From Methanobacteriota archaeon (GTDB lineage Archaea; JAADCQ01; Methanopyri; Methanopyrales; Methanopyraceae), in assembly GCA_027064425.1 (NCBI GenBank), contig JAMOPO010000057.1, forward strand, positions 129,352-193,351: 64,000 nt of DNA, written 5' to 3'. A program made the position numbers and the translations under genes. Positions 46,456 to 52,968 of this stretch are shown here, piece after piece. Positions within the stretch are counted from its first letter, which is position 1. Each line of letters opens with the position of its first letter. The notes beneath the pieces were generated by a model, which worked only from the letters and a program-made list of their open reading frames with translations, searched no databases and was not told the origin of the DNA.

Positions 46456-47220
46456 GTGAGCCGGTTGCGCTTCGCCGTCCTCTACTCTCACCCGTTCGGC
46501 GAGAGAATGTTGGCCAACCTGCTGAACGAGCCGGGCCACTGTCGGGCCTGCGGGCCCGCGTGCGATGGATGCAAGTACGGTGCGTACTCGCTCGCCGACT
46601 CCCTGGTTACCGCGGAGGAGCTACCCAAGCCGGAGGAGCTACCCCCGATGATCGAGGATCCAGGGGACTACCTCCCAAGACTACCGCCCGTCGACGTGCT
46701 GGTGGCGGTCGGACTGCACCCCGACCTCCTGATCGCGCTACCCGAGTCGTACGACGTCCGCTCCCTGATCGTTCCGGTCGAGGAGCCCGACTGGATGGAC
46801 CCGTGGACGGAGAGGAAGCTTCGCGAAGCGTGCGAGGAGAGCAACGTGGAGCTCACGGTGGCGAGACCGGGGTGCGACCTGGAGCCACCCGGCCCCGTGA
46901 CCGAGAGGTTCTGCAGGGCGGGCCTGATCGGCAGGCCTAAGCTGTCCCTGAGGGTGGAGGACGGCGTCGTAGTTGAGGCCCGGGTGGTGAGGTCGGCGCC
47001 GTGCGGCTGCACGTGGTTCGTGGCCAAGCGGCTGGTGGGCGTGGACGCGGAGCCGGGGGAGGTGAAGGCCGCCGTGTCCGAGGCGCACCACTCCTACCCG
47101 TGCACGGCCTCGATGAAGGTCGACGAGCGCGTCGGGGACACCCTGCTCCACGCGGCGGGCTGGCTGCACGTGAGGGCCGCCCTTCGGGCGCTGGAGGAGG
47201 CGGTAGGGGGCGGCGAGTGA
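46456..47220 (+). CDS. DUF166 family protein with Cys-rich cluster motif
   Basis: 254 residues, archaeal DUF166. Hallmarks are VAVGLHPDLLIALP, SLIVPVEEPDW, VRSAPCGCTWFVAKRL and AHHSYPCTASM. An N-terminal CRACGPACDGCKYG group with four Cys and the later Cys residues suggest an Fe-S cluster. The family was once labelled thymidylate-synthase-like; its function is unproven. GTG 46456. It lies upstream of the CO dehydrogenase locus and may be unrelated to it. Confidence 0.82.
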   Translation: MSRLRFAVLYSHPFGERMLANLLNEPGHCRACGPACDGCKYGAYSLADSLVTAEELPKPEELPPMIEDPGDYLPRLPPVDVLVAVGLHPDLLIALPESYDVRSLIVPVEEPDWMDPWTERKLREACEESNVELTVARPGCDLEPPGPVTERFCRAGLIGRPKLSLRVEDGVVVEARVVRSAPCGCTWFVAKRLVGVDAEPGEVKAAVSEAHHSYPCTASMKVDERVGDTLLHAAGWLHVRAALRALEEAVGGGE

Positions 47221-47228
47221 AGACGTCC

Positions 47229-47654
47229 TCAGTCGCCGAGCACTCGCTCCAGCACCTCCCGGAACAGCCTCCACCTCCTCCCCCGGAGCCCGTACTCCCG
47301 GCGCACGTCGGCCTCGATGTCCTTGGCCTCGTAGCCGGCCGGGCGGTACGTGGAGACCAAATCGCCGTCGCGGCGCCCCGGCTTCAGCCTGATCTCGCCG
47401 CGACGTAGGAGGTCGTGGATGGCCTCCTTCACGTCCACGGAGAAGTACGGCGCCCTGAGCAGCATGCAGTACCCGTACTCGGTCCCCGTCAGCGGCCGGC
47501 CCGTCTCGCGCTCGAACTCCTCGTCGATCGAGTAGATCACGCGGAACAGGGATCGCTGGTCGATACCGGGCCGGAGCGCCACGAGGTACTTCACCAGCGG
47601 TCTCAGGTCCGCGTCCGTCGGCTCGACCGTGTGACATCTGCACCGGGCGTGCAA
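47229..47654 (-). CDS. Unknown protein with SocA/Panacea-like region
   Basis: About 141 residues. The segment SLFRVIYSIDEEFERETGRPLTGTEYGYCMLLRAPYF recalls SocA/Panacea (DUF4065) domains, which serve as antitoxin or adaptor modules; the match is weak. No toxin gene is beside it. The open frame goes on to an ATG at 47726, but those residues look non-coding and cross the shared promoter, so I prefer TTG 47654. It is divergent from cooS and its stop lies 8 bp from the DUF166 stop. Confidence 0.55.
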   Translation of the reverse strand: MHARCRCHTVEPTDADLRPLVKYLVALRPGIDQRSLFRVIYSIDEEFERETGRPLTGTEYGYCMLLRAPYFSVDVKEAIHDLLRRGEIRLKPGRRDGDLVSTYRPAGYEAKDIEADVRREYGLRGRRWRLFREVLERVLGD

Positions 47655-47686
47655 GGTCGCGCCACCCCATCGGCCGAGATCTCCCG

Positions 47687-47713
47687 TTCGATGAAATTCG
47701 AAAACGTTATAAT
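47687..47713. promoter_or_regulatory. Promoter with TTCGA-N6-TCGAA palindrome (cooS locus)
   Basis: TTCGA, six bases, TCGAA, five bases, then TATAAT. The TATA element is nearly symmetrical and lies between cooS and the divergent gene, so it may serve both. Confidence 0.6.
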
Positions 47714-47739
47714 GGTACGCGGGCATGGTCGAGACTGGT

Positions 47740-47749: not shown

Positions 47750-47773
47750 GTTGGATGCGAACGGGGGATGGGC

Positions 47774-49675
47774 ATGTCGGGAGAGTGCCCGTACGCGGAC
47801 GAGGCCGTCCGTGAGCTGGTCGAGCACGCCAAGAAGCTCAACGAGGAGATGCCGGAGATCGAGACCCCGCACATCCGGTGGCCCGTTCAGTTCCCGAAGT
47901 GCCCGTACGGTAAGCAGGGCGTGTGGTGCAACATCTGCGCGAACGGGCCCTGCAGGATCACCGAGAAGACGCCGCGCGGCGTGTGCGGAGCCACGGCGGA
48001 CGTGATCGTGGCCCGTAACTTCCTCCGGCACGTGGCCGCGGGGGCCGCGTGCTACGTTCACTGCCTGGAGAACGCCGCCCGGGCCCTGAAGTCCGTGGCG
48101 GATGAGGAGTCACCGTACGAGATCGCGGACGAGCGCGCCCTGCGGCACGCAGCCGAGGTCTACGGGCTGGACGCCTCGGGCAAGCCGGAGGACGTGGCGG
48201 AGGAGATCGCGGACTTCATCCTAGAGGACATTTACCGGCCGCGGCACGAGGAGTCGGAGGTGTTCAAGGCGGTCGTGCCGGACTGGCGAGTCGAGATGTA
48301 CGAGGAGCTCGGTCTCGTCCCGGGCGGCGCGAAGTCCGAGATTCACGACGCGCTGGTCAAGACGAGCACGAACCTGAACTCCGACCCGGAGGACATGCTC
48401 CTGCACGTGCTCCGGCTGGGCCTGATCACCGGACCCGTCTCCCTGTTCGGCGTGGAGACAATCAACGACATCCTGTTCGGGAGTCCGAGGATCACGGAGA
48501 CGGAGGGCGGCCCGGGGATCCTGGACCCGGACTACGTGAACATTATGGTCACCGGGCACCAGATGCCGCTGCTCAAGCACCTCATGGACGCGGCCGAGCG
48601 GCTGGAGGACGAGGCCAAGAGGGCCGGGGCCAAGGGCATCCGGATCATCGGGGCGACGTGCGTCGGCGACGACTTCGAGGCCCGCGCGGAGCACCTGCCG
48701 GACACGTACGCGGGGTTCGCGGGCAACAACTTCGCGACCGAGGCGCTGGCCGCGACGGGTCTCGTGGACGCGATCGTCAGCGAGTTCAACTGCACGTTCC
48801 CGGGCCTGAAGTTCTACGGTGAGAACGTCGAGCTGATCGCCGTGGACGACGTGGCCAAGGTGTGGGGAGCGGAGCTGATTCAGTGGGACCCGGAGCGCGC
48901 TGAGGAGGTGGCCGAGGAGGCCGTCAGAAGGGCCATCGAGGCGTTCAAGGAGCGCCGCTCGAAGCATGAGGATCGGATCATGCGGCCCGAGCACAGGCAC
49001 GAGAACGTGGTGGGCTTCGGCTACTTCTCGATCGAGGACGCGGTCGGCTGGGAGAAGGTGCTCGAGCTGATCGAGGAGGGCACCATCCGAGGCGTCTGCG
49101 CGATCGTGGGCTGCACGAACCTGGCCAGCGGCGGTCACAACGTGCCGGCCGCCACCCTGGCGAAGGAGATGATCAAGCGGGACATCCTCGTCCTCGGAGC
49201 CGGGTGCGTGAACGGAGCGCTGGCCAACGCCGGCCTGTTCAACCCCGAGGCGGCCGAGCTCGCCGGCGAGAACCTCCGGAAGGTCTGCGAGGAGCTCGGC
49301 ATCCCACCGGTGCTCCACTACGGGCCGTGCCTGGCGATCGGTAAGATCGAGCACCTGCTCTTCGAGATCGCCGAGATCCTGCGGGAGAAGACCGGCGAGG
49401 AGGTCGATATCCCGGACATCCCGGCCGTCGCGAGCGCGCCGCAGTGGCTCGAGGAGCAGGCGCTGGCGGACGCGTCCTCGGCCCTAGCGCTGGGCATCAC
49501 GCTGCACGTGAGCCCGGTGCCGCCCGTGACCGGCAGCAAGGTGGTCACCAAGACGCTGCTCGAGGACCTGCCGGAGCTGACCGGCGGCGAGCTGATCATC
49601 GAGACGGACATGGAGAAGGCCGCCGAGATCCTGGCCGAGAAGATCGAAGAGAAGCGGAAGCGCTTGGGTATCTGA
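47774..49675 (+). CDS. cooS: Monofunctional Ni-Fe carbon monoxide dehydrogenase, CooS type
   Basis: 633 residues. The enzyme oxidises CO to CO2. B-cluster cysteines are C52, C55, C60 and C71. Likely C-cluster ligands are H in VTGHQMPLL, C in IIGATCVGDD, C in EFNCTFPGL, C in IVGCTNLASG, C in GAGCVNGAL and C in YGPCLAIGK. Where most CooS have Cys-Cys before the B cluster (GVCC), this has Trp-Cys (W51-C52), so the shared D cluster is probably altered. ATG 47774 has GGGGG at better spacing than ATG 47768. It heads a tight cluster with FrhAGB-like genes. Confidence 0.95.
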   Translation: MSGECPYADEAVRELVEHAKKLNEEMPEIETPHIRWPVQFPKCPYGKQGVWCNICANGPCRITEKTPRGVCGATADVIVARNFLRHVAAGAACYVHCLENAARALKSVADEESPYEIADERALRHAAEVYGLDASGKPEDVAEEIADFILEDIYRPRHEESEVFKAVVPDWRVEMYEELGLVPGGAKSEIHDALVKTSTNLNSDPEDMLLHVLRLGLITGPVSLFGVETINDILFGSPRITETEGGPGILDPDYVNIMVTGHQMPLLKHLMDAAERLEDEAKRAGAKGIRIIGATCVGDDFEARAEHLPDTYAGFAGNNFATEALAATGLVDAIVSEFNCTFPGLKFYGENVELIAVDDVAKVWGAELIQWDPERAEEVAEEAVRRAIEAFKERRSKHEDRIMRPEHRHENVVGFGYFSIEDAVGWEKVLELIEEGTIRGVCAIVGCTNLASGGHNVPAATLAKEMIKRDILVLGAGCVNGALANAGLFNPEAAELAGENLRKVCEELGIPPVLHYGPCLAIGKIEHLLFEIAEILREKTGEEVDIPDIPAVASAPQWLEEQALADASSALALGITLHVSPVPPVTGSKVVTKTLLEDLPELTGGELIIETDMEKAAEILAEKIEEKRKRLGI

Positions 49676-49708
49676 TTCTCACCAATCTTTTCCGGGCAGG
49701 TGACTCTC

Positions 49709-50809
49709 ATGAGAGTGGAAACGCTCCGGGTCGCGACGGGTGAGCCCGGAGAGCTGAGGGTGGTCGCGGAGATCACGGAGGGGAAGGTCGTGAACGCCGA
49801 GGTGTGCTCCACGACCACGCCGCTCTCCTGGGAGACGCTGGTCCTCGAGAAGCCCGTCGAGTTCGCCGTGGTCGCCGCCGAGCGGGTGTGCCGCGGCTGC
49901 GACGCCAGCGCGGGGCTGGCCGTGGCGGAGGCGGCCGAGGACGCCCTGGGCGTGGACGTGCCGGACGACGCGAGGAGGGCCCGAGAGCTCCTGAACATGG
50001 CCAACGTGGTCAAGTCGCACGCCAGGACGCTGGCCGTGGCCGACCTGGGAGTGGAGGAGCCGGCCTACGAGCTCGTCCGCGCCGCCAAGGAGATCGTCAG
50101 GATGGTGGGCGGGAAGCCCCAGCACCCACCCGCCGTAACCGTGGGCGGCCTGGCGATCGAGCGGATCCCCGTGGAGCGGGTTGAGAGCGTGGCCAAGGAC
50201 GCGGTGGAGACCGCCGAGGAGGTGCTGGATGACGTGGAGTCGGCCGTAGACGACCTGCGAGAAGACCTCGAGGTGGAGCCGCGCGAGCGGCCGACCGAGC
50301 TCAGCGTCTCGGACACGTACAGGGGCGACGTGGACCGGGGCGCGATCGAGGTGCTGACGCCGGAGGAGTTCTACCGGATGAGGACCACCCGGAGGATCGC
50401 CACCAACCTCGTCGCCCAGTATGAGGGCAAGCCCGCCCTGGTCGGACCGGCCGCGAGGCGGGGCGGGGCGGAGCATCCGGTGGAGCACCACGTCGCCAGG
50501 GCCGAGGAGATCGTGAGCATGCTGGACGGGATCGCGGACGCCGCCTCAGGGCTGGACGGGTCCGGCGAGTACCGGACGGACGACGTGGAGGCGGGATCCG
50601 GCGAAGGGGCGGCCGCGGTGGAGGCCCCGGAGGGCGTCCTCGTCGTCCGGCTGCGGCTCAGGAACGGGCGCGTGGACGAGGCCGAGATGATCACTCCTTC
50701 CAACTTCAAGGCGGCCCTCGCGGGCGACCTCCTGCCCGGACTGACGGTCGAGGAGGTCGAGACGGTCCTGCGCTCGCTCGGCCTCTCCGGCAGGTGCCTC
50801 ACGCACTGA
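49709..50809 (+). CDS. Degenerate NiFe-hydrogenase large-subunit-like protein (FrhA/MvhA type)
   Basis: 366 residues, shorter than FrhA (about 400) or MvhA (about 470). The L1 motif is kept as ERVCRGCDASAGLAVAEAAEDALGV (R-x-C-x-x-C), followed by ARRARELLNMANVVKSHA and a KPQHPPAVTVGG region. The C-terminal L2 motif, normally D-P-C-x-x-C-x-x-H, reads L-G-L-S-G-R-C-L-T-H: the first Cys is Ser and the D-P is gone. No in-frame TGA is there, so selenocysteine does not rescue it. The Ni site is therefore probably dead. ATG 49709 follows AGGTGA. It lies 33 bp after cooS. Confidence 0.82.
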   Translation: MRVETLRVATGEPGELRVVAEITEGKVVNAEVCSTTTPLSWETLVLEKPVEFAVVAAERVCRGCDASAGLAVAEAAEDALGVDVPDDARRARELLNMANVVKSHARTLAVADLGVEEPAYELVRAAKEIVRMVGGKPQHPPAVTVGGLAIERIPVERVESVAKDAVETAEEVLDDVESAVDDLREDLEVEPRERPTELSVSDTYRGDVDRGAIEVLTPEEFYRMRTTRRIATNLVAQYEGKPALVGPAARRGGAEHPVEHHVARAEEIVSMLDGIADAASGLDGSGEYRTDDVEAGSGEGAAAVEAPEGVLVVRLRLRNGRVDEAEMITPSNFKAALAGDLLPGLTVEEVETVLRSLGLSGRCLTH

Positions 50810-50821
50810 GGGGGGCTCGAG

Positions 50822-51538
50822 ATGAGGGTAGCCCTGCTCTCCCTCATGTCCTGCGGATCCTGCGCGGAGAACCTCGAGATCGTGTGCCAGAGTGAGGGCC
50901 ACGAGCTGGTATGGTCGAGTCTGAGGGACGACGGTGAAGTGCCGGACGTGGACGTCCTGTTCGTGGACGGGGCCGTGGACTTCGCCGACGCTGACGCGCG
51001 GGAGCGGCTCGAGCGGGCGGTCTCGTCGGCGGACGTGGTCGTGTCGCTGGGATCCTGCGCCGCCACCGGTGGCTTTGAGCGGCACGCGATCGGCATGCGA
51101 GAGCCCGCCAGGTACCACTTCACGGTGTTCCCGGCCGCCAAGTTCGCCGACACGGACTACGCCATCATCGGCTGCCCTCCCACGGAGGACGCCATCGCCT
51201 CCTTCCTGGAGGCGCTGGAGGAGGGCGACGACGACAGGCTCGAGCCGTACCGGGTCCTGTCGGGGGACTTCCACGGGCTGGACCCGAACCTGCCGTCCCC
51301 CGTCCGTGGCCCGGAGGCGACGGTGGAGGACGTGCTGCTGACCTCCAACAAGGATCTCTGCCTGGGCTGCGACCTGGACGTCGTCGAGCGAGAGCTATTC
51401 TGCACGGGATGCGGAGCGTGCGCCGCCTCGTGCCCCGCCTGGGCCATAGAGATCGACGAGAAGCCCGAGATCCGCGAGGACAGGTGCATCAGGTGCGGAA
51501 CGTGCTTCGCGACCTGCCCGAGGTCGTTCCGAGCTTGA
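50822..51538 (+). CDS. FrhG-like hydrogenase small subunit with two ferredoxin clusters
   Basis: 238 residues. Proximal cluster ligands are SCGSCAENLE (C-x-x-C, about 10-14), SLGSCAATGGF and IIGCPPTEDAI. The C-terminal part has CTGCGACAASCP and CIRCGTCFATCP, two 4Fe-4S ferredoxin sites as in FrhG, plus an extra CLGC pair. The protein looks intact, so it can carry electrons even if the large subunit is dead. ATG 50822, 12 bp after the FrhA-like gene. Confidence 0.92.
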   Translation: MRVALLSLMSCGSCAENLEIVCQSEGHELVWSSLRDDGEVPDVDVLFVDGAVDFADADARERLERAVSSADVVVSLGSCAATGGFERHAIGMREPARYHFTVFPAAKFADTDYAIIGCPPTEDAIASFLEALEEGDDDRLEPYRVLSGDFHGLDPNLPSPVRGPEATVEDVLLTSNKDLCLGCDLDVVERELFCTGCGACAASCPAWAIEIDEKPEIREDRCIRCGTCFATCPRSFRA

Positions 51539-51557
51539 GCCACCGGTGGTGCGCGCG

Positions 51558-52460
51558 ATGCGCGGGTTGCTGAGAAAGATCCTCGGGAAGAAAGACCGGC
51601 GGGATGGTAAGATGAAGCTCGACCCCGAGCTCGTGGGTGAGTACCGCGGCGCGTACCTGGCTCGAGCCACCGAGGAGCGCTTCCGAGAGGCCGGCCAGGA
51701 CGGCGGCACCGTCACCGCGCTCCTGGCGCACGCGCTCGAGGAGGGTTACATCGAGGCCGCGGTCGTGTCGACGACGGGCTCCGACCCGTGGAGGCCGAGG
51801 CCGACCGTGGCCACGAGCGTGGAGGAGCTGCTCGAGGCGGCCGGGTCGAAGTACTCCATCTCGCCGAACCTGAGCGCGCTGGAGACGGCCGTCGGGTCCC
51901 ACGACTCGGTGGCCGTGGTCGGCACACCGTGCCAGGTCAGCGCCGTCAGGAAGCTGGAGTCGCACGCGTACGGCGTGGCCGACGTCGCGGAGCGCGTGAA
52001 GCTGCTCATCGGCCTCTTCTGCTCCGAGAACCTGACCTACAAGGGTCTGACCGAGTTACTAGAGAAGGAGATCGAGGCCGACCTCTCCAGCGTGGAGCGC
52101 ATGGACATCACGGCGGGTAAGTTCACCGTCGTCACCTCCGACGGCGAGGAGCGATCGGTTTCCGTCTCAGAGCTGCGCAGGTACGCCAACGAGGCGTGCG
52201 GCTTCTGCACTGATTTAACGGCAGAGGACGCGGACGTGAGCGTTGGGTCCACGGGCGCTCCAGACGGTTGGAACGTCGTTCTGGTGCGGACCGGCCGGGG
52301 CGAGAGGATCCTCCAGTCCGCTGTGGACGCCGAGGTGCTGGAGGTAAGGGACGTGGACGAGGGGGACCCGGCGACCCTCGAGCGGCTGGCGAGCGACAAG
52401 AGGGAGCGCGCCGAGAGCGCCAGGTGCGCGGTGTGGCGACCCTACCCGACCTCCCCCTAG
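51558..52460 (+). CDS. FrhB-like F420-oxidoreductase subunit
   Basis: 300 residues, family of FrhB/FdhB/FpoF, the flavoprotein that passes electrons to coenzyme F420. The N-terminal ERFREAGQDGGTVTALLAHAL and VVGTPCQVSAVRKLE are its hallmarks; LLIGLFCSENLTYKGL and CGFCTDLTAEDADVSVG give the Fe-S and flavin region. ATG 51558 has GGTGGTG in place; GTG 51546 or 51549 would add four or three residues. With CooS upstream it is the natural electron exit to F420. Confidence 0.93.
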   Translation: MRGLLRKILGKKDRRDGKMKLDPELVGEYRGAYLARATEERFREAGQDGGTVTALLAHALEEGYIEAAVVSTTGSDPWRPRPTVATSVEELLEAAGSKYSISPNLSALETAVGSHDSVAVVGTPCQVSAVRKLESHAYGVADVAERVKLLIGLFCSENLTYKGLTELLEKEIEADLSSVERMDITAGKFTVVTSDGEERSVSVSELRRYANEACGFCTDLTAEDADVSVGSTGAPDGWNVVLVRTGRGERILQSAVDAEVLEVRDVDEGDPATLERLASDKRERAESARCAVWRPYPTSP

Positions 52461-52491: not shown

Positions 52492-52968
52492 GTGGAAATC
52501 GGTCCGAGGGAGTTCCTCCGAGCGTTCCTGTACTCCTACGTCGTAACGTCCGCGCAGCTGCTGGGTAGCAAGGCGCCGGCCCTGCGGCGGGCCGTGTGCA
52601 GGAACGCCGCCCGGGCCCTACTCCGGGAGCACCCGGAGCTGGAGGACCTCGAGCCCGTTGAGATGGTGAAGGCGGTGGCCGAGAGCCTGCTGGGGGCCAG
52701 CGTGAGCGTCGATGAGGACGCGTCCGGAGGAGTGGCTGTCAGGATCGAGGGATGCAGGATCTGCCCGAGGGACCTCATCGAGGAGTTCGTCCGTGATCAT
52801 CCCGAGTTGAAGGACCCGATCTTCGGGTACAACGTCTGCGCGTTCACGACCCTCATTGAGGAGGTCTTCCGAGCCCTGGGGGAGGAAGTTGAACTGAAGC
52901 ACGAGCCCGTGGAGCGCGGCCGCTGTCGCGTGATCGTGAAGGCGAGCGGCAATAGGGCCGACGTTTGA
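52492..52968 (+). CDS. Small V4R-like sensor domain protein
   Basis: 158 residues. The second half (VRIEGCRICPRDLIEEFVRDH, GYNVCAFTTLIEEVFRAL, then GRCRVIVKASG) follows the 4-vinyl-reductase (V4R) domain pattern also seen in the next gene. V4R domains bind small hydrophobic ligands and sometimes metals through Cys. Role unknown; the position after the CO dehydrogenase genes suggests a sensor or accessory protein. GTG 52492. Confidence 0.6.
   Translation: MEIGPREFLRAFLYSYVVTSAQLLGSKAPALRRAVCRNAARALLREHPELEDLEPVEMVKAVAESLLGASVSVDEDASGGVAVRIEGCRICPRDLIEEFVRDHPELKDPIFGYNVCAFTTLIEEVFRALGEEVELKHEPVERGRCRVIVKASGNRADV

Follow-up and report, generated by a model that had tools for sequence, protein, structure and literature searches.

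The window analysed here is a stretch of 64,000 nucleotides from an archaeon of the Methanopyri (contig JAMOPO010000057.1), and its subject is a tight four-gene operon, cooS-frhA'-frhG'-frhB' (47774 to 52460), in which the gene for a carbon monoxide dehydrogenase (CODH) is followed by homologues of the large, small and F420-reducing subunits of a group 3a hydrogenase, the large subunit with a dead NiFe site. The host genome (G000) is 1.54 Mb in size, and GTDB 232 treats its group as a separate phylum, in which there are 5 genomes, all of one genus. With ATG starts at 49709, 50822 and 51558 the genes are separated by 33, 12 and 19 bp, exactly the order and spacing given in the original prediction that drew attention to the locus, and gaps this short leave no room for internal promoters. 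The starts of frhA' and frhB' are backed by N-termini conserved among orthologues, and the cooS open reading frame (ORF) has an alternative start at 47768. The features are as follows.

47774 to 49675, forward strand: cooS, monofunctional Ni-CO dehydrogenase of group C-3 type (TIGR01702 at 723 bits, residue table, alignment to 6t7j).
47924 to 47926, forward strand: codon of Trp53 (numbered from 47768), at the second D-cluster Cys position (residue table).
49709 to 50809, forward strand: frhA', homologue of the group 3a hydrogenase large subunit with a dead NiFe site, 366 aa, last residue His, no propeptide.
50630 to 50632, forward strand: codon of Glu308, in place of the active-site Arg of the EAPRG motif (active-site table).
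50786 to 50788, forward strand: codon of Ser360, at the first C-terminal Ni-ligand position (TCC in 5/5 species; selenocysteine in the genome's own FruA).
50822 to 51538, forward strand: frhG', small electron-transfer subunit with the full set of conserved FrhG cysteines.
51332 to 51361, forward strand: FrhG'-specific motif VLLTSNK-D-LC, within an insert that canonical FrhG does not have.
51558 to 52460, forward strand: frhB', FrhB-family subunit of the F420-reductase type with flavin adenine dinucleotide (FAD) and a [4Fe-4S] cluster, its ORF open from a GTG at 51546 (PRK09325, 3zfs_C, 8riu_B, four Cys).
52492 to 52968, forward strand: ORF of 158 aa, no known family, 31 bp 3' of frhB' (same place in 5/5 Methanopyri, 60-66% identity).

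CooS lies far over the TIGR01702 cut-off of 478 bits, FrhA' and FrhG' fall under theirs (125 bits against 392 for TIGR03295, 141 against 245 for TIGR03294), and FrhB' is over the cut-off of the F420-hydrogenase beta subfamily model PRK09325 (316 bits against 269) and under that of the FrhB equivalog (259 against 331). FrhB' is divergent in Methanococci, where the operon is also found.

The state of the large subunit is seen in an active-site table that sets FrhA' of 5 Methanopyri and 11 Methanococci against canonical FruA, FrhA and VhuA, an alignment which the original prediction had called for and which does bring out the loss of Ni ligands in both lineages. C61 and C363 are kept in all 16 FrhA', position 64 is Cys in the Methanopyri and Asn or Thr in the Methanococci, and position 360 is Ser in 5/5 Methanopyri and Cys in the Methanococci. 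The genome's own FruA (L043:3870-5065) has an in-frame TGA, read as selenocysteine, at the first C-terminal NiFe ligand, and in register with it (YDI-U-ASC-AAH) three of the four ligand Cys are present in Methanopyri FrhA', with the second C-terminal Cys and the final His kept. The N-terminal R-x-C-x-x-C is preserved as R-V-C-R-G-C, as had been claimed, whilst the claimed loss of the C-terminal motif stands for the ending LGLSGRCLTH and the change of the first ligand to Ser but was overstated, as one of the four ligands is lost. Further and stronger signs, beyond those listed in that prediction, are that the active-site Arg (PRG), present in all canonical sequences aligned, is Glu308 in 16/16 FrhA', that the RxEGH motif with its gate Glu is absent in both lineages, and that there is no C-terminal propeptide, the last residue being His in Methanopyri (CxxH, with GLSGRCLTH as the ending in 5/5 genomes) and Leu in Methanococci (CxxL), where FrhA' is also shorter, at about 298 aa, with the N-terminal strands missing. 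In known [NiFe] hydrogenases, residues of this kind serve as ligands of Ni and Fe, in H2 activation, in proton transfer or in maturation. As FrhA' has lost a Ni ligand, the Arg, the gate Glu and the propeptide in two lineages, it is, judged by its residues, unable to hold a working NiFe site in either, and a role as a working hydrogenase was ruled out. The four-Cys/Sec ligand set that defines group 3a hydrogenases is not found in FrhA', so the module is not placed in that group. The shared change of Arg to Glu suggests a single ancestral loss of function, after which a different ligand would have been lost in each lineage.

This bears directly on an earlier proposal, made for the M. jannaschii operon from gene order, that the neighbour of CooS is a working hydrogenase and that the pair drives H2 production from CO (PMC4652020). 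As one terminal or bridging Ni-Fe ligand is lost, Arg is replaced by Glu, and the gate Glu and propeptide are missing in every copy examined, CO-driven H2 production is highly improbable.

FrhA' is nonetheless still under constraint. The ratio of non-synonymous to synonymous substitution (dN/dS) of frhA' between species is 0.20-0.40, which indicates purifying selection, 148 of 366 columns are invariant in Methanopyri, and the AlphaFold2 model (predicted local distance difference test score, pLDDT, 85.7; predicted template modelling score 0.88) has the FrhA fold, matching 9r51_A with Z 46.8 and a root-mean-square deviation of 1.9 over 364 residues. Decay to a pseudogene was rejected, since every copy has an intact frame and dN/dS lies well below 1. 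An origin of Ser360 directly from a selenocysteine codon by one base change was rejected too, as all five species have TCC there, which is at least two changes away from TGA. No relatives of FrhA' were found among viral contigs. The earlier suggestion that the large subunit is only a scaffold is supported in so far as FrhA' cannot be a working hydrogenase, though it may be more than a scaffold, as three Cys of the old site are invariant within each lineage. It is conceivable, if doubtful, that the old NiFe pocket is filled, with the remaining three Cys (C61, C64 and C363 in Methanopyri, the positions of C61, C360 and C363 in Methanococci) holding a new cofactor such as an Fe-S cluster that would wire CooS to the proximal FrhG' cluster. 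If true, a hydrogenase active site would have been turned into an electron relay, serving a CooS that has lost its D-cluster.

In CooS all six C-cluster ligands and all B-cluster cysteines are in place, as judged from a residue table of 20 CooS, and it is the D-cluster that has changed, the second Cys position being Trp in Methanopyri, Tyr in Methanococci and Cys in Methanomassiliicoccales-like relatives. Structural group C-3 of the Ni-CODHs has been described as archaeal only, with one Cys in the D-cluster region, Tyr and Gln at the acid-base sites and a complete C-cluster (PMC6344411, representative WP_010870233), and since the operon CooS has the same single D-cluster Cys, the same Tyr and Gln and the same complete C-cluster it is, by its residues, of this published type. 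That paper named only Methanocaldococcus and Methanotorris, and neither the Methanopyri members nor the dead FrhA' partner are described there. The nearest CooS without a tie to FrhA'G'B' come from Ca. Methanomicula and a Methanomassiliicoccales-like bin; they keep the D-cluster Cys pair and adjoin HdrC/HdrB-like genes, thus loss of the D-cluster appears, in this small sample, to accompany the link to FrhA'G'B'. Clade-C-like cooS genes lie directly downstream of HdrC-like and HdrB-like genes in two loci of Methanomassiliicoccales-like archaea (L151:828-4436 and L152:5459-8845), which suggests a link from CO to heterodisulfide in those organisms. A second cooS, of another clade and with both the D-cluster Cys pair and the acid-base His and Lys intact, is followed in genome G094 by a gene for a 534-aa FrhB-family protein with ferredoxin domains (L136:3434-7198), a candidate for another pair of CODH and F420 reductase.

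The electron chain behind FrhA' looks complete. All conserved FrhG cysteines and the four FrhB cysteines are present in CooS-linked sets and canonical copies alike, which bears out the original prediction that FrhG' and FrhB' are intact. Among solved structures FrhB' is best matched by FrhB (3zfs_C, E 1.5e-63) and also matches 8riu_B (E 8.2e-52), which is a proven F420 reductase bound to CODH. The only domain matches of FrhB' are FrhB_FdhB domains, without the N-terminal ferredoxin domain found in the zeta subunit of the Ca. Ethanoperedens CODH (PMC11493965). Trees of FrhG and FrhB separate the canonical copies of Methanopyri, Methanococci and Methanobacteria from the CooS-linked ones of both lineages (branch support 99/97 and 99/99), which fits one origin of the latter, although long branches weaken this. 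One mark of the CooS-linked copies is an insert between the two domains of FrhG', V-x-x-VLLTSNK-(D/E)-LCLGCD, which is present in all copies aligned and missing from canonical FrhG. A DNA pattern for VLLTS(N)K...LC found 14 of 394 archaeal genomes, with one match each and all of them operon carriers, and its reversed control found 0; the pattern was built from the operon's own sequences, therefore only its absence elsewhere is informative. It is proposed that the insert may form the contact with CooS.

In these thermophilic methanogens the four genes go together. The search for the same gene order in other archaea, which had also been suggested, found the operon in 5/5 Methanopyri genomes and again in Methanococci, where FrhA' (E below 1e-119) occurs in 12 of 36 genomes and a C-3 CooS in exactly those 12, in the same place, the other 24 having neither. 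The full order was read in ten of the 12, the sequence in G068 and G072 stopping inside or after frhG', with frhB' beyond. GTDB puts Methanopyri and Methanococci in different phyla, and the gene order is conserved across both; in the Methanobacteria searched the operon is absent, with a CooS over cut-off in only 1/151 genomes. The shared operon and GLSGRCLTH ending, the homologous Methanococci operon with another ligand lost, and a dN/dS of 0.20-0.40 together amount to more than chance.

It might be argued that the two parts are separate enzymes that happen to lie together, CooS working alone with ferredoxin and FrhA'G'B' as an F420-linked module for some other partner, the interaction being a prediction. 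G063, a genome of the Methanocaldococcaceae that lacks CooS, still has a fused FrhA'-FrhG' homologue, therefore this pair can exist without CooS; the fusion (L199:6309-7496, 395 aa) has an FrhA'-like part (RIC...LNE, GFCERCHYK) and an FrhG-like domain without the ferredoxin part, and a gene of the aldehyde:ferredoxin oxidoreductase family lies nearby. Co-occurrence is otherwise strict, however, and the D-cluster is lost in just those CooS that are linked to FrhA'G'B' and kept in their closest relatives beside Hdr-like genes, so that independent enzymes seem quite improbable.

The reading that we favour, with a probability of roughly 0.58, is that the operon's product is a CO:F420 oxidoreductase of the cytosol, derived from a group 3a hydrogenase that has been retired, and that it catalyses CO + H2O + F420 -> CO2 + F420H2. 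CO would be oxidised at the C-cluster of CooS and the electrons would leave through the B-cluster, to be relayed by the clusters of FrhG' to the [4Fe-4S] cluster and FAD of FrhB', from which F420 would receive a hydride. FrhA' would be a retired large subunit or adaptor that holds FrhG' and perhaps docks CooS, and the loss of the D-cluster and the new FrhG' insert may be matched changes that make FrhG' the electron exit. The model predicts that the proteins form one complex, that electrons take this route, that this CooS turns over CO in the oxidising direction and that F420 accepts the electrons; that the F420H2 reaches Mer and Mtd, as the original prediction had it, is likewise a prediction. 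The genome carries its own complete Fru, with selenocysteine, therefore H2-dependent reduction of F420 is covered elsewhere, and the physiological role of the operon is probably to scavenge vent CO, which is inhibitory to hydrogenases, and to store its electrons as F420H2 for methanogenesis.

The potential of F420 is about -360 mV. With an E0' of -520 mV for CO2/CO (PMC4652020), standard conditions give about -31 kJ/mol for the transfer of electrons from CO to F420, a downhill reaction. There are precedents for the reaction, as a clade A CODH with an FrhB-like zeta subunit from Ca. Ethanoperedens reduces F420 with CO (PMC11493965) and F420 was reduced with CO in extracts of M. thermoautotrophicus (cited in PMC4652020). 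By our own calculation the CO2/CO potential nears that of F420 at nanomolar CO, so that the reaction would be near equilibrium and could be imagined to run in reverse, F420H2 driving the reduction of CO2 to CO. This is strongly uphill at higher CO, and the CO for acetyl-CoA comes from the separate Cdh/ACS complex, the alpha subunit of which is present in these genomes, which makes reverse use very improbable.

A number of points weigh against a CO:F420 oxidoreductase. The complex of CooS with FrhA'G'B' is itself a prediction from genes. CooS has no D-cluster and FrhA' lies over the proximal cluster of FrhG', which makes it hard to see how the parts would dock, and the single-chain AlphaFold2 model of FrhG' has a mean pLDDT of 58, with the C-terminal half unresolved and the insert not placeable. 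The acid-base His and Lys are replaced by Tyr and Gln in the operon CooS, as they are throughout clade C, although in T. kivui a clade C enzyme does oxidise CO and growth on CO depends on it. Clade C as a whole has been argued from context and knockouts to have low or no CO activity, or to be regulatory (PMC13056359), and the operon might accordingly be a sensor or redox-tuning unit with little CO turnover, reporting CO or redox state or balancing F420. The same replaced residues favour such a role, as does the downstream part of the window, where the conserved ORF of 158 aa is followed by an MsvR-like gene of HTH-V4R type. The regulator does not adjoin the operon in 1/5 Methanopyri, however, and is not there in Methanococci (a short HTH match only), and a sensor has no obvious need of complete C-cluster ligands and a whole FrhG'/FrhB' chain under purifying selection, thus we regard this role as unlikely.

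The identity of the acceptor can also be questioned, as FrhB-family subunits may serve others; in Thermococcus, FrhAGB operates without F420 and reduces thioredoxin reductase (cited in PMC10025317), and FrhB' might likewise pass electrons to ferredoxin, thioredoxin reductase or another partner. That FrhB' is under the equivalog cut-off and divergent in Methanococci would agree with this. On the other side stand its score over the beta subfamily cut-off and its match to the CODH-bound F420 reductase 8riu_B, and methanogens are rich in F420, so that another acceptor is improbable. It is on account of the arguments for a low-activity or regulatory clade C, and of the FrhB-type subunits that reduce partners other than F420, that our confidence in the CO:F420 oxidoreductase is kept where it is.

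The closest functional parallel is the CODH component of the acetyl-CoA decarbonylase/synthase (ACDS) of Ca. Ethanoperedens thermophilum (alpha2-epsilon2-zeta2; PMC11493965), a Ni-CODH with an FrhB-family FAD/[4Fe-4S] subunit that reduces F420 with CO. The operon shares with it an FrhB-family subunit encoded with a CODH, and CO-dependent reduction of F420 is predicted for it. The ACDS component, however, is of the clade A Cdh type with E and F clusters, its zeta subunit has its own N-terminal ferredoxin domain, and it has no hydrogenase-like subunits, whereas the operon has a clade C enzyme of CooS type (33 bits against the CdhA model, cut-off 781), a dead FrhA', and FrhG' as a relay subunit of its own. 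With FrhAGB of group 3a (3ZFS, 6QGR, 9R51) the operon has in common the FrhA fold, the FrhG cluster set, the FrhB subunit and the A-G-B gene order, and differs in the dead NiFe site, the missing propeptide, the FrhG' insert VLLTSNK(D/E)LCLGCD and being encoded with cooS. The hydrogenogenic CODH/ECH complex has a working NiFe large subunit and membrane subunits, unlike the operon with its dead FrhA', and no membrane hydrogenase subunits were found among the other operon genes by Pfam/NCBIfam. In principle FrhA' is like ElpA in the Elp complex ElpABC of Methanothermobacter (PMC12350162), where a metal-less catalytic subunit is kept as an adaptor in an F420-linked chain, although ElpA is derived from formate dehydrogenase, not hydrogenase, and the complex feeds Hdr from F420H2.

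The gene association itself is already known. The CODH-hydrogenase operon of M. jannaschii was noted in PMC4652020, where H2 production was suggested, and a survey recorded that clade C CODHs of archaea adjoin genes for an 'F420-reducing hydrogenase' (PMC13240472), whilst elsewhere an association with hydrogenases is held to be almost exclusive to CODH clades E and F (PMC13056359). In the available parts of the first two the neighbour is taken as a working hydrogenase and the loss of the NiFe site is not mentioned. No report of this loss in a CODH-linked FrhA' was found in the literature under open licence, nor any mention of the locus tags MJ0725-MJ0728, though an earlier mention is still possible. 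What is new is the dead site, its spread across lineages and the FrhG' signature. An operon annotated in Methanocaldococcus and Methanopyri as a CO-linked F420 hydrogenase is thereby reassigned to a predicted CO:F420 oxidoreductase, which offers a concrete and testable function for an archaeal branch of the clade C CODHs, enzymes of disputed activity, and which, if true, would add a second architecture for linking CO to F420. It is also a clear example of the retention of a hydrogenase large subunit whose metal site is gone, comparable to ElpA, with what appear to be matched changes in the CODH and the small subunit.

The 158-aa ORF that precedes the MsvR-like gene is possibly a fifth operon gene, confined to Methanopyri. 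Upstream, a 165-aa ORF of no known family (47229-47726, minus strand) is divergent from cooS and less than 50 bp from it, and is found in 3/4 other Methanopyri loci; further upstream lies a DUF166 protein (46456-47220), present in 5/5 Methanopyri and with a weak match to the selenoprotein-related DfsP family. In Methanococci a gene of a flavoprotein family is found upstream of cooS (L135:4435-5022 and L130:8045-8605).

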